A stretch of 64,000 nucleotides of DNA. It comes from a bacterium (Candidatus Blackallbacteria) CG13_big_fil_rev_8_21_14_2_50_49_14. GTDB taxonomy: Bacteria > Cyanobacteriota > Sericytochromatia > UBA7694. Location of the stretch: the NCBI GenBank assembly GCA_002783405.1, contig PFGG01000041.1, forward strand, positions 124,001 through 188,000, given 5' to 3'. A program made the position numbers and the translations under genes. The notes under the pieces are model-generated. The model had not been told where the DNA came from, ran no database searches, and saw only the letters and a program-made list of their open reading frames with translations. Of the stretch, positions 19,684 through 51,327 are shown piece by piece. Position 1 is the stretch's first letter. Every line of letters starts with the position of its first letter.

Positions 19684-21147
19684 TTATTCAGTAAAACTGG
19701 TGCTGAGAGCCTGTCTGTGAATTTCGGCGATGCCACTGAGGGTATTGAAGCGAATGCCTATTCCCAAGGGCTGACCTGCAGCAGAGGTGCTGCTGCGCAG
19801 GCCTTCAACCAAGGTGGTAAAATAGCCGTCCAACCAGACTTGGCTGACTGTGAAGTTGGTACTGAAAGCCGTATGGTAGGCATCGCCATTTTCTCCGCTC
19901 AGGTAGTTATCCAACGCTTCTCCCAGATCCGCGATCAGGGCTTGTGCATCGGCTTGGCCTTCTGTCTCTGTCTGGTTGGTGCCACAACTCTGCCCGGCAT
20001 GGGTTTCGGCCAGACAGGCAGGATGTGCTTTGCCCATACTGCCCACAATAAACAAGGATTGATCCAGTTCTGACTGGCTACTGGGATAAAATGGCGTGAT
20101 CCAGTGGTTGACATCTTGGGTAAACCAGCCCCTGGCACGTTGCTGGGGATTGGCTTGAGGGGCAGCATCGTGGTTTCTGGCTGGCGTGGCCCGATCGGCT
20201 GGAAGCCAGAGATCAGGGTAATCGCTCTGGCTTAAAGAGGCCTGGCAATCTTCAACAACGCCCCCAATGGTGTTGATGCCCGCATCAAGAGCACCTTGAA
20301 CCCATCCTCCCGCTGTGCCAGTTTCATTACAGGCCCCTGAGGCGATGTTTCCCTCTGCCCCAGCCGCGTTGAGTTCACTTACCAGCGGTGAGAGATAGGC
20401 CACGATTTCTGAATAACTTGCGTTTTCGTGCACATCGGCATGAAGGCTCACGCGGTGGCCATAGCTGTTCTGGAGCAAATTCACAAGACTGTTTAAGTTA
20501 AAATCTCCATTCAGAGGGGTGTGAACGGTGGCTTCCCCCTGGTAGGTTCTAAGAAAATCATTCCCCAAACCGATCGACAAGCTCAGCCCTGCATTGTGCG
20601 CTGTTCTTGCGATTTGAATGAGATAATCGGTTTCTTGATCATTGGGAAGCATGGCATTTTCAACATGCAATTCCATGACCAGATTCAAAGTTCCTGAAGT
20701 GGGACGGGCTGGAATTCCACTCGGGCTAGAACTGGGGCGTGGGGCGGTGTAAGGGATTGCACTCGGCGTAGGGCTGGGCAAAGGTTTTGGCGTAAATTGG
20801 GGAGTGGGGCTTTTCAGTATTTGGGGCAAAGGACTTTGCTGACTTGAACGATCCGGCAGGGGGGAAGCAAAGTTTGTTTGATAAGGGGTGGGGGTAAGTT
20901 TGTTTTCAGTTGTATTTTCTTGCATTTGCGTTATTTCAGTCTGTGGGTTTGAAGTTGCTTGTGAATTGGAACCTGTCTGATTCTGTACAGAGGAAGCAGA
21001 ACGGATGGAGGTAGATTGTGTTGTTTGTGTTTGTTGCGGAGCTTGAATACTGAGTAAGGATTGCAGGATCTCAGGATTTTGACAGCCTGTGATCGTGGCG
21101 CAAGCTAAGCTTGCGCATAAAATTTGAGTGAGTTGAAATCTTTTCAT
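19684..21147 (-). CDS. Lipoprotein with Pro/Ser/Thr-rich stalk, unknown C-terminal domain
   Basis: A 487-residue lipoprotein. The lipobox ITGC places the lipidated Cys at residue 22. Residues about 30-150 are a low-complexity Gln/Ser/Thr then Pro/Ser/Thr stalk that would hold the rest away from the membrane. The C-terminal about 335 residues form a globular domain I cannot assign. It has an alternating strand-helix look (LNLVMELHVENAML, LSLSIGLGNDFLRTY, RVSLHADVHENASY, INTIGGVVEDC) suggestive of a barrel hydrolase or deacetylase-like fold, with several conserved-looking His and Asp residues and four Cys. The 5' leader is a cyclic-di-GMP-I riboswitch, implying a role in surface attachment or matrix. 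A terminator follows. Confidence 0.75.
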   Translation of the reverse strand: MKRFQLTQILCASLACATITGCQNPEILQSLLSIQAPQQTQTTQSTSIRSASSVQNQTGSNSQATSNPQTEITQMQENTTENKLTPTPYQTNFASPLPDRSSQQSPLPQILKSPTPQFTPKPLPSPTPSAIPYTAPRPSSSPSGIPARPTSGTLNLVMELHVENAMLPNDQETDYLIQIARTAHNAGLSLSIGLGNDFLRTYQGEATVHTPLNGDFNLNSLVNLLQNSYGHRVSLHADVHENASYSEIVAYLSPLVSELNAAGAEGNIASGACNETGTAGGWVQGALDAGINTIGGVVEDCQASLSQSDYPDLWLPADRATPARNHDAAPQANPQQRARGWFTQDVNHWITPFYPSSQSELDQSLFIVGSMGKAHPACLAETHAGQSCGTNQTETEGQADAQALIADLGEALDNYLSGENGDAYHTAFSTNFTVSQVWLDGYFTTLVEGLRSSTSAAGQPLGIGIRFNTLSGIAEIHRQALSTSFTE

Positions 21148-21178
21148 AATCCATGATTCTCCCTAAGGTTTTTTTATT

Positions 21179-21246
21179 GGGCAACCCGGCTGACTGCTTG
21201 AGTCCCGTGGCTTTGCGTCCTCACCTCACGGTGAGTTTGCCTTTTT
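21179..21246 (-). ncRNA. Cyclic-di-GMP-I (GEMM) riboswitch aptamer
   Basis: Read on the minus strand, the leader has the GEMM signature in order: GGCAAAC (21235-21241), a perfect P2 helix CTCACC/GGTGAG closed by a GTGA (GNRA) tetraloop, then GACGCAAAGCC (21209-21219), a short P3, and GCCGGGTTGCC near 21180. The G immediately before GCAAAC corresponds to the G20 that favours c-di-GMP over cGAMP. The aptamer ends about 30 bases before the lipoprotein ATG, and AGGGAG lies between, so translational control is likely. Just upstream is a perfect hairpin, CCCTCC-GCAA-GGGAGG (21247-21262), whose TCCCT could alternatively pair with the AGGGA of the ribosome binding site. Confidence 0.88.
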
Positions 21247-21452
21247 CCTCCCTTGCGGAGGGATAGTTTGATTATCCTCAACTTGAGAGGGCTTTGCGAT
21301 GCGCTCCAATACAGCTTTTGTGTTAGCTTGCTGGCATGAAAAATGTGATCAGCTTGACAATTTGGCAAGTAAATTTATTAAGCATTGCTTGCTCGAAGCT
21401 TGTCTTTTCAGCTTTAGAGGGGCTTCAGAGTTTGCCACAAACAGGGGGTAAG

Positions 21453-21483
21453 AAAAAAAGAACCTCCTTTTCAGGAGATTCTT
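21453..21483 (-). terminator. Rho-independent terminator
   Basis: On the minus strand an 11-bp stem (AAGAATCTCCT with AGGAGGTTCTT, one wobble) closed by a GAAA tetraloop is followed by seven T. It ends the gene whose stop is at 21517. Confidence 0.92.
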
Positions 21484-21516
21484 TAATTTGTAAATTTAAA
21501 TTCGTTTGATTCAGGC

Positions 21517-22092
21517 TTAATCTTCAAGACCCAATTTATTCATAAAACCGGGATCCAAAGGTTCTATCGCTGGTTGGGGCGTTTTTTTGTAAATTTCAAT
21601 TGGATTGGGGAAGGGTTTAATCCGGGGGAAGGGATCTACAGAGGGTTTCCCGACATGGGGTGGAATTCTGTTTTCGGCAACGGCATCGGCGATTTGATAC
21701 ATTTTTTGGAGAATATCGCGTTCCCATTGTGAGGTCTCATTGCTGCCCATGCGTTTGACGATATTGTCTTTCAGATCATCCAATTCACCAGGGGTCATGC
21801 CCTCAATGTTTTCATGAAACGAATTCAGGGCATCGCGTTGGGCTCCGGGATATTTTGCACTGGCTTGAGCCAATGTTTTTTCAATACTTTTGTTATTGCT
21901 GTGAAAGAAAGTTTCGGGAGGAATGACACAACCTCCGGGTAAAATGGAGTTGATATGTGAGTCTTTGGCGTGAATCGCTTGGGCAAATTCATTTTCACTG
22001 TTTTTGATCTGGGCATGTGTTGCTTTTGCTTCACTTCCCCCTGAGGTTTTTGCGATTTGGGCCAGATGATTCTGATTGGGTTGAATTTGCAT
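21517..22092 (-). CDS. Hypothetical protein, 191 residues
   Basis: I do not recognise this protein. It has no signal peptide or membrane segment. The N-terminal 45 residues are polar and Gln/Asn-rich, and the middle (GMTPGELDDLKDNIVKRMG, then WERDILQKMYQIADAV) looks helical. The C-terminal 45 residues are Pro-rich (PRIKPFPNPIEIYKKTP). AGGAG lies about 10 bases before the ATG, and a strong terminator follows 34 bases after the stop, so it is a clean monocistronic gene. Confidence 0.75.
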   Translation of the reverse strand: MQIQPNQNHLAQIAKTSGGSEAKATHAQIKNSENEFAQAIHAKDSHINSILPGGCVIPPETFFHSNNKSIEKTLAQASAKYPGAQRDALNSFHENIEGMTPGELDDLKDNIVKRMGSNETSQWERDILQKMYQIADAVAENRIPPHVGKPSVDPFPRIKPFPNPIEIYKKTPQPAIEPLDPGFMNKLGLED

Positions 22093-48542: not shown

Positions 48543-49910
48543 TTACCAGGCCAGAATTTGTTTGGCCAGGCGTAAATTATCAGCTTCTTTTAAATTCGGA
48601 ATGCCATTGCCATCTGAATCTTCACTGCTGAAGATTGAGCTATCCCCTACCAGGACGACCTTGCCTGCACCATAGAGTGCGCTTAGCACCACCCCAAATG
48701 AACCCGTATTGTCGAGAATACGAAAACTGTTTTTGCTTGAACGGGCCAGAATTTCAGCTGAGGGAGAGGTCGTGGTCTGGACACTCCCTGATTGATAGAA
48801 TTTGAGCTGCGCGATGGATTGGGTAATGGCATGGGGCGTGAATTGATCCACCGTTAAATAACCTGAACCAGAATCTCGCAAGCTATCCGCACCCATGCTC
48901 AGGCCATAAGGGGCCAAAAGCAAATTGACAGCTTGAGCATCAAAACCACCAAATCCGGCCCATTCGCCCAAAACCACCAGTTTGCCCCCATTTAAAACAA
49001 ACGCTTGAATGGCCCCTATTTCTTCTGCTGAAAAACTTTTCGAGGGGCTGATAAAAACCAGGATATCTGTATCAGAGAGATTTTCCAAGGAGTTCATTTT
49101 TTTGAGCGAGTAACCGGCCTGGATCCATTCATTTTGCAGTGTTTCAAAATTCTTTAAGCCAGCTTCTGCACTTTGACCCATAGGATTTTTACTGGTGTCG
49201 AGGCTGACTTTGATTTGACCGGTCTTGGTGGGCAGGGTCAGCGTACCGAGATCCAGATTTTGATTGATTTGAGCGGCTGTGATCTTAATCTGGCTTTGAT
49301 AGCCTTGTTTTGCGGCCACCATTCTCAATTGCTGTGCTTCTGAATAGCCAAATTGAAACTCACCGTTGGCATTGGTGATGATACTCTGCTTGCTGTCAAA
49401 AACGACGGCATTTGCGAGCGGCTGCCCCTGTGAATCTGTGACCCGCCCTTTGAGAGTGGATTGATTCCGTTCCATTTTAATCGCCAAAAGCAGGGTATCT
49501 GTGTTTTGAACTGAGGGCACACCCAGTAGGTTGACTGTGCGCGAGGATGAAAGAAATCCGCTGGCATTGACCCGGATGGAATATTCTGTGTCAGTGCGTA
49601 AACCAGGGAAATTTGCCAAGCCATTGCTGTCCGTGGTGGCTTTAATCGCAGGCACCGCTGCCGCACTGATCTCCACTTCTGCCCCGCTAATGCCTTTGAC
49701 ATCGGCATCTGAAATCAACAATTGAACATCTTTGCGCGGAATCGGTAGGGGAGTGCCAGTGACGGCTCCCGTGGGAGCAGGGGTTGGGGTCTGAACAGGC
49801 GGATCAATCACGCCATCTGAGACGCAGGCCGTAAGCAGCATACCGCTCAGCAACGCAGCCAGGGTTTGGTATTTTAATGTTTTCGATTTTTGAGTCTTAA
49901 TCACGGGCAT
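48543..49910 (-). CDS. Lipoprotein with carboxypeptidase-regulatory-like domains and a GATase-like C-terminus
   Basis: A 455-residue lipoprotein with lipobox LTAC at the end of a signal peptide. Two beta-sandwich domains of the carboxypeptidase-regulatory type follow: VQLLISDADVKGISGAEVEI then STLKGRVTDSQGQPLANAVV. The C-terminal about 200 residues have a Rossmann-like, GATase/DUF4350-like layout (DTDILVFISPSKSFS, NGGKLVVLGEWAGFGG, GKVVLVGDSSIFSSEDSDGNG). Such combinations occur in surface proteins of unknown role. It is the last gene of the subtilase operon; its ATG overlaps the protease gene by 14 bp. Confidence 0.75.
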   Translation of the reverse strand: MPVIKTQKSKTLKYQTLAALLSGMLLTACVSDGVIDPPVQTPTPAPTGAVTGTPLPIPRKDVQLLISDADVKGISGAEVEISAAAVPAIKATTDSNGLANFPGLRTDTEYSIRVNASGFLSSSRTVNLLGVPSVQNTDTLLLAIKMERNQSTLKGRVTDSQGQPLANAVVFDSKQSIITNANGEFQFGYSEAQQLRMVAAKQGYQSQIKITAAQINQNLDLGTLTLPTKTGQIKVSLDTSKNPMGQSAEAGLKNFETLQNEWIQAGYSLKKMNSLENLSDTDILVFISPSKSFSAEEIGAIQAFVLNGGKLVVLGEWAGFGGFDAQAVNLLLAPYGLSMGADSLRDSGSGYLTVDQFTPHAITQSIAQLKFYQSGSVQTTTSPSAEILARSSKNSFRILDNTGSFGVVLSALYGAGKVVLVGDSSIFSSEDSDGNGIPNLKEADNLRLAKQILAW

Positions 49911-51327
49911 CGTTGCGGGTCCACCTTAGGGCACGTAAAGCATTCATTTTTCCATAACCACTGGCCTCATCAAAACCAGGGGCATCCAGATCATCCGCTG
50001 TGGCAATCAGGCGGCTGCGGATCTGGGCCGGTGTTAAATTGGGTTCGCGACTGAGCATCAGGGCAACGACTCCGGTGACATGGGGGCAAGCCATCGAAGT
50101 GCCAGAGGTTGCTGCGTAGTAAGTGCTGGTGACCCGCTTCATAAAATATTCATAGGTCTGATAGGAGGGCCAGGTCGACCAGATTTGTTGCCCTTCTGCG
50201 GCATTGGTGCTTCTGCCTCCCCCTCCGGGGGCCAGAATATCTATCTCAGGGCCGCCATTGGAATAGGATGCGACCTTGTCATATTGGGTATGTGCACCCA
50301 CTGCAATTACGCCTGGATAGGCTGCTGGCACGGTAATCGGATTGATACTGCCTTGAAAGCGACTGCTTTCGTTTCCTGTGGCAGAGACAATCGAGATGTT
50401 TTTCTGAAGGGCCAATTGAATGACATCGACCAAGGCTTGGGTTGATTTTGCTGCGGGGCCGCCAATACTGATATTGATAACGCGTACATTGCGGTCAATG
50501 GCGCGTTGAAAGGCTGCCGTGAGAACTGCTGCATCTGTATTGCCGGCATAGTCTGTAGATTTGATTGGAATAATTCGCACCCCTGAACCGGCTACGCCAG
50601 CAACCCCAATTTGGTTGTTCAGGGTAGCAGCAATGATACCGGTGACATGGGTGCCATGCCCGTTTCCATCCTTGCCCCCAAAATTGGTGCTTTGGCCTGT
50701 AAAGGGATTGCGATAAATATCAGGGCCCCGTTCTTCATTCCAGATGTCTTCAAGTTTTTCGAGATGATCAATTAAATCAGGGTGATTGGGATCGACCCCC
50801 GAATCAATCACTGCCACCCGCAGCGTGGGATTTCCTGTGGTCAGCGTCCAGGCTTTGTCAATGCCTGCACTTTTCATATTCCATTGCAAACCGTAATTGG
50901 GATCGTTGGGGCGAATCACGTCGCTTGTTAAGGCCTGGGTTTGAAAATTGGGAAGATGAAAACTGGGGTTGGGTTCAGCATAGGCCAGCGCACTCGAATG
51001 ATTCAATTGCTCGAGGGTTTTCATCAAGGAGGTCTGGGTAGGAATTTTTAAAAGATAGATGCCCTGCTCCTTCGAGATCAGGCGGCTGTCTTCGATTTTG
51101 ACCTGCTCAGGCAGCACATGATTCAAATTGGCTGCGACATCACGTAAACGCACCAGCACATCTCGGCTGTGGGCCAGATCTACTGAGTCCAGCAGGTGAG
51201 CTGGACTGGCTACAGGGGCTTGTGCGGTTGTCGGGGCCAAAACCGTATTCAGGCCTTGCGTCGAACAGGCCGTCAGAAAAGCCAGGCTGATCAGCCCGAT
51301 AAGTTTAGGAGTAAAGCCGTTGAACAT
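49897..51327 (-). CDS. Subtilisin-like serine protease (S8), lipoprotein
   Basis: A 476-residue subtilase. The lipobox LTAC gives Cys at residue 21. A prodomain-like region follows (residues about 55-125, ending SALAYAEPNPSF), then the catalytic domain with the full triad: D175 in AVIDSGVD, H224 in GNGHGTHVTG and S411 in SGTSMACPH, with oxyanion N319 in SATGNESS. It is predicted active at the cell surface. It overlaps the upstream prodomain-only gene by 23 bp and the downstream lipoprotein gene by 14 bp, so the three are one operon. Confidence 0.94.
   Translation of the reverse strand: MFNGFTPKLIGLISLAFLTACSTQGLNTVLAPTTAQAPVASPAHLLDSVDLAHSRDVLVRLRDVAANLNHVLPEQVKIEDSRLISKEQGIYLLKIPTQTSLMKTLEQLNHSSALAYAEPNPSFHLPNFQTQALTSDVIRPNDPNYGLQWNMKSAGIDKAWTLTTGNPTLRVAVIDSGVDPNHPDLIDHLEKLEDIWNEERGPDIYRNPFTGQSTNFGGKDGNGHGTHVTGIIAATLNNQIGVAGVAGSGVRIIPIKSTDYAGNTDAAVLTAAFQRAIDRNVRVINISIGGPAAKSTQALVDVIQLALQKNISIVSATGNESSRFQGSINPITVPAAYPGVIAVGAHTQYDKVASYSNGGPEIDILAPGGGGRSTNAAEGQQIWSTWPSYQTYEYFMKRVTSTYYAATSGTSMACPHVTGVVALMLSREPNLTPAQIRSRLIATADDLDAPGFDEASGYGKMNALRALRWTRNDARD

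Follow-up and report, generated by a model that had tools for sequence, protein, structure and literature searches.

The aptamer and the gene behind it

In the window (the whole 64 kb stretch of DNA analysed here), the sole Rfam cmscan hit at the gathering threshold was a full-length match to RF03167, c-di-GMP-I-GGC (minus strand, 21250..21176), which scored 73.3 bits against a cut-off of 59 bits (E 1.8e-15). The GEMM-I covariance model RF01051 (c-di-GMP-I), whose use had been proposed as a check in a preliminary description of this DNA, likewise matched above its cut-off (70.3 vs 35 bits). These scores lie far above the Rfam thresholds and agree with the class I c-di-GMP aptamer claimed in that description. 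Judged from its sequence, minus-strand 21250-21176 is a class I c-di-GMP (GEMM-I) aptamer. The locus reads as follows:

21457..21484, minus: intrinsic terminator of the preceding gene (terminator scan)
21176..21250, minus: c-di-GMP-I (GEMM-I) aptamer (cmscan, both models)
21247..21248, minus: P1 5' strand GG, pairing with CC 21180-21179 (covariance-model alignment); an upstream CC competes for it in the free fold
21241-21235, minus: motif GGCAAAC (read in the sequence)
21220..21235, minus: P2 helix with a GUGA (GNRA) tetraloop (alignment fold, compensatory changes in P2)
21219-21209, minus: motif GACGCAAAGCC (read in the sequence)
21187-21179, minus: motif GGGTTGCCC (read in the sequence)
21179..21180, minus: P1 3' strand CC (covariance-model alignment)
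19684..21147, minus: gene of a 487-aa lipoprotein behind the switch (ORF; lipobox ITGC; orthologue behind the same switch in the same-genus genome G001)

All the elements named earlier, i.e. GGCAAAC, the GNRA-capped P2, GACGCAAAGCC and GGGTTGCCC, were thus located on the minus strand. Across 10 aptamers, six pairs had changed on both sides with pairing kept, mostly in P2. The switch RNA begins downstream of the preceding gene's terminator (21484-21457), and the aptamer ends 28 bases ahead of the lipoprotein ATG. The span originally given, 21179-21262, was roughly right; with the upstream platform and the Shine-Dalgarno sequence, the element covers about 21261-21159 and reaches slightly beyond it. 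A scan of the locus found no strict sigma-70 promoter. We also considered whether a degenerate second aptamer lies further upstream (GGCAAAC at ~21434, CGCAAAGCC at ~21300), and rejected this after a permissive cmscan of 21100-21560 gave nothing there.

Ligand pocket and sister aptamers

The ligand contacts in Vc2 are G20, A47 and C92 (PMC4744006). Their equivalents in the window aptamer are:

21241, minus: G, equivalent to Vc2 G20, which discriminates c-di-GMP from cGAMP (aptamer comparison; role from PMC4744006)
21214, minus: A, equivalent to Vc2 A47, the ligand-stacking position (G in the GGC variant; aptamer comparison, model alignment)
21181, minus: C, equivalent to Vc2 C92 (aptamer comparison)

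The G at 21241 is the base that had been reported for the ligand-discriminating position, and the mark of the cGAMP variant, an A at position 20, is absent from the window aptamer. At position 47, the RF03167 consensus has G (GACGCGAAGCC) and the window RNA has A (GACGCAAAGCC). We take the "GGC" in the name of RF03167 to be the bases at positions 20, 47 and 92. If the best-scoring family were followed, the window aptamer would be a c-di-GMP-I-GGC variant with an altered ligand. This reading has the 3 bits by which RF03167 beats RF01051 in its favour, but its consensus G is replaced by A in the window RNA and in all 13 relatives that we found (14 of 14 aptamers), and we consider it highly improbable. 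Because position 47 is A and not G, the pocket would be canonical and the higher RF03167 score would reflect similarity elsewhere. The set G20/A47/C92 is thus, as read from the bases, that of c-di-GMP and neither that of cGAMP nor GGC, and Rfam's top label appears misleading for this aptamer. C92 is invariant across the 14 aptamers and G20 is present in 13.

These 14 aptamers came from 6 of the 18 Sericytochromatia genomes in our class survey. A riboswitch pattern scan matched records of Candidatus Sericytochromatia (including the same-genus G001, MAG_89), a few of Bacillota and a single proteobacterial one. The window's genome has two aptamers. The second (L024:9945-10019, minus) precedes the gene of a Peptidase_S8 (subtilase) lipoprotein (L024:8552-9922, minus), and upstream of it lies ACTCCTT, complementary to the Shine-Dalgarno sequence AAGGAGT. 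G001 has four aptamers, one of them ahead of an orthologue of the window lipoprotein with 52% identity. Two aptamers of genome G004 (L030 and L031) carry about 60 additional bases, with long added stems inside P3, and are 138 bases in total. In the more distant genome G007 the P1 sequence differs: two near-identical aptamers on separate contigs (L033 and L034), with similar upstream flanks, have the P1 5' strand UCUCC and appear to be a duplicated switch with a platform unlike the others. An aptamer-like sequence of the same genome (L036, G007:C493:4660-4778) falls under the family cut-off, has C at the ligand-discriminating position 20, and is possibly degenerate or changed in its ligand.

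Folding of the leader and proposed control of translation

Three elements around the aptamer enter the folding analysis:

21247..21261, minus: free-state hairpin CCUCC-GCAAG-GGAGG, occupying the P1 5' strand (minimum-energy fold, partition function)
21251..21260, minus: upstream anti-Shine-Dalgarno arm CUCC GC AAGG, the 5' arm of P0 (pairing with CCUU AG GGAG in the bound-state model)
21159..21168, minus: CCUU and the Shine-Dalgarno sequence AGGGAG, the 3' arm of P0 (bound-state model; sequence)

A plain duplex test showed no clear excess of pairing between the Shine-Dalgarno sequence and the 60 upstream bases, and we therefore adopted a two-state model in which the bound state was represented by constrained folding with P1, P2 and P3 enforced. 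Eight loci were testable. In the modelled free RNA of most loci, C-rich or U-rich upstream bases paired with the P1 5' strand. When P1 was enforced, pairing of the Shine-Dalgarno sequence with the upstream flank rose from 0.08 to 0.68 in the window locus, from 0.05 to 0.96 in the second locus of the same genome, from 0.02 to 0.59 and from 0.06 to 0.76 in two G001 loci, and from 0.01 to 0.98 in G005. A clear modelled switch was thus obtained in five of the eight loci; in the other three (G001a, G001c and G002) it was absent or weak. The combined p was 1.6e-4 versus dinucleotide shuffles of the 30-base upstream flank and 1e-4 versus real 30-base flanks of other genes, both values being optimistic given the relatedness of the eight loci. 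Taken by itself, the window locus gave a p of 0.11 versus shuffles (not significant) and 0.037 versus genomic flanks (borderline). The cost of passing from the free to the P1 state was 2.6-5.5 kcal/mol, which a tightly bound ligand could pay.

These results suggest the following model. In the free RNA, the CC just upstream of the aptamer would pair with the P1 5' strand (CCUCC/GGAGG), so that P1 would be open and the upstream arm would not hold the Shine-Dalgarno sequence. Binding of c-di-GMP would close P1 (GG/CC) and release the upstream arm CUCC-GC-AAGG, which would zip onto CCUU-AG-GGAG and hide the Shine-Dalgarno sequence, so that translation would be off at high c-di-GMP. The model presupposes a transcription start 5' of the upstream arm. 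An upstream hairpin with TCCCT able to pair with the AGGGA of the ribosome binding site had been proposed from the start; the hairpin is present and the anti-Shine-Dalgarno function is supported by the modelling, but the TCCCT reading was slightly off. The hairpin is best described as CCUCC/GGAGG (21261-21247), and the modelled contact with the Shine-Dalgarno region as CUCC/GGAG plus AAGG/CCUU.

The total accessibility of the window's Shine-Dalgarno sequence drops by just 0.14 when P1 is enforced, since in the free fold the CCC of the P1 3' strand weakly pairs with its GGG. That pairing would be the basis of the opposite logic, an ON switch, in which CCC (21181-21179) covers the Shine-Dalgarno GGG in the free RNA and the ligand draws CC into P1 and frees it. 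The minimum-energy fold of the free window leader does contain this pairing. It consists, however, of only three pairs over a 15-base loop and leaves the Shine-Dalgarno sequence still ~46% unpaired; it is not common to the other loci, and enforcing P1 leaves the Shine-Dalgarno sequence covered from upstream instead. We therefore regard an ON switch as unlikely. The aptamer could also bind c-di-GMP and act on transcription elongation, Rho access or mRNA stability, with the upstream pairing incidental. The three loci without a clear modelled switch would fit this, as would the long G004 leaders, whose two aptamers gave no modelled switching between the Shine-Dalgarno sequence and the upstream flank. 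However, the terminator scan found no intrinsic terminator between the aptamer and the start codon of the lipoprotein gene, the spacing in the eight modelled loci is 22-45 bases, and the modelled switching is enriched versus both shuffles and genomic flanks; such a mode seems quite unlikely to us. We favour, and hold to be reasonably probable on this modelling, a reading in which a canonical class I c-di-GMP riboswitch acts on the translation of a surface-anchored lipoprotein and turns it off at high c-di-GMP.

An out-of-frame ATG (21150-21152, minus) lies a few bases past the Shine-Dalgarno sequence and ahead of the lipoprotein ATG (21147). It could lower initiation at the lipoprotein gene or couple it.

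The probable lipoprotein regulon and known systems

The protein encoded behind the switch has two parts after its signal peptide:

20698..21081, minus: linker rich in Pro/Ser/Thr/Gln/Asn, residues 23-150 (67% S/T/P/Q/N, 17% P)
19687..20697, minus: orphan globular domain, residues 151-487 (without database matches; N-terminal part predicted beta/alpha)

By pattern, the ORF starts with a type II signal peptide, MKRFQLTQILCASLACATITGC, with the lipobox ITGC at residues 19-22 and Cys22, in keeping with the 487-residue lipoprotein of the preliminary description. The long Pro/Ser/Thr stalk described there is recognizable by composition, but its length is not conserved, since the linker of the 52%-identical orthologue is much shorter. 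The domain had been called unassigned, and it indeed gave no match in Pfam, nor in NCBIfam, PDB sequences, plasmids or viral contigs. A profile search of 386 genomes of the phylum found no relatives outside the genus and lent no support to two weak, partial hits that a single-sequence search had given beyond the class. An AlphaFold2 model from two sequences was poor (mean pLDDT 48.5); within the domain, pLDDT was ~54-83 over roughly residues 11-110, where strands alternate with helices. No PDB fold match to this model was significant (best E 0.08), and many of the weak, non-significant ones were beta/alpha barrels. A beta/alpha-type enzyme for residues 151-487 is our guess from the model; the window protein would probably be a further enzyme or binding protein of the cell surface and have such a fold, the fold being the weak step. 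A NodB-type polysaccharide deacetylase fold had been guessed and found no support, and profile comparison gave nothing for kinship to the GH114 and GH18 sister targets.

All ten switch targets of the two nearest families begin with a lipoprotein signal, compared with 8 of 118 other ORFs from the same stretches when the same rough rule is applied. Pfam assigned three of the ten to Peptidase_S8 and one each to DJ-1/PfpI, GH18 and GH114; three had no assignment, and one was cut by a contig end. Of the three targets resolved in G007, one is a lipoprotein. The common theme of the targets, as predicted from their sequences, would be surface-anchored, mostly hydrolytic proteins. The DJ-1/PfpI target (L025:1317-3077, plus) carries a tandem pair of these domains with a long Pro/Thr linker between them. 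Elsewhere in the window, two adjoining predicted lipoprotein genes (48543-51327, minus; ~455 and 476 aa) have no riboswitch hit.

The genome (Candidatus Sericytochromatia bacterium, Cyanobacteriota) encodes ~16 GGDEF domains, so that c-di-GMP production is expected in the host. If the same logic holds at the sister switches ahead of lipoprotein subtilases and a glycosidase, the regulon would probably consist of cell-surface hydrolases made at low c-di-GMP, i.e. in a motile or dispersing state. More tentatively, and as a possibility that we would not yet rely on, these may form a riboswitch family of class I specific to Sericytochromatia, with the anti-Shine-Dalgarno arm upstream, that shuts off surface-anchored proteases and glycosidases (including the genus-restricted family of the window) at high c-di-GMP as part of a biofilm-matrix dispersal programme.

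Among titles and abstracts, we found no literature relevantly joining Sericytochromatia with c-di-GMP riboswitches. The window switch itself is not categorically new; the analysis adds a corrected ligand pocket, a lipoprotein regulon and a platform model with statistical support. These findings extend the reach of c-di-GMP riboswitches to a class of Cyanobacteriota that is deep-branching and non-photosynthetic and is known here from metagenome assemblies only, and they give the switch a defined output in surface lipoproteins, many of which are predicted hydrolases. The translational-switch model is compact, comprising 20-40 bases upstream of the aptamer, and can be tested; an orphan lipoprotein gains a physiological context, and the pocket illustrates that the best-scoring Rfam label can mislead.

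With RF01051, the window RNA shares the order of P1, P2 and P3, the GNRA loop and G20/A47/C92; it differs in its Sericytochromatia host and in P1, which is very short and has a 5' strand (AAGGA-type) that itself looks like a Shine-Dalgarno sequence. RF03167 is the best-scoring model, yet it has G at position 47 where the window RNA has A. Vc2 from the tfoY leader of Vibrio cholerae is described as switching translation OFF, with P1 as the deciding helix (PMC9262584, PMC7371385). The proposed masking of the ribosome binding site under the control of P1 resembles it in outline, and the target here is a surface lipoprotein instead of tfoY. The class I c-di-GMP riboswitches of C. difficile are uniformly OFF switches (PMC6366702); they use transcription termination, whereas the window switch is predicted to act on translation.
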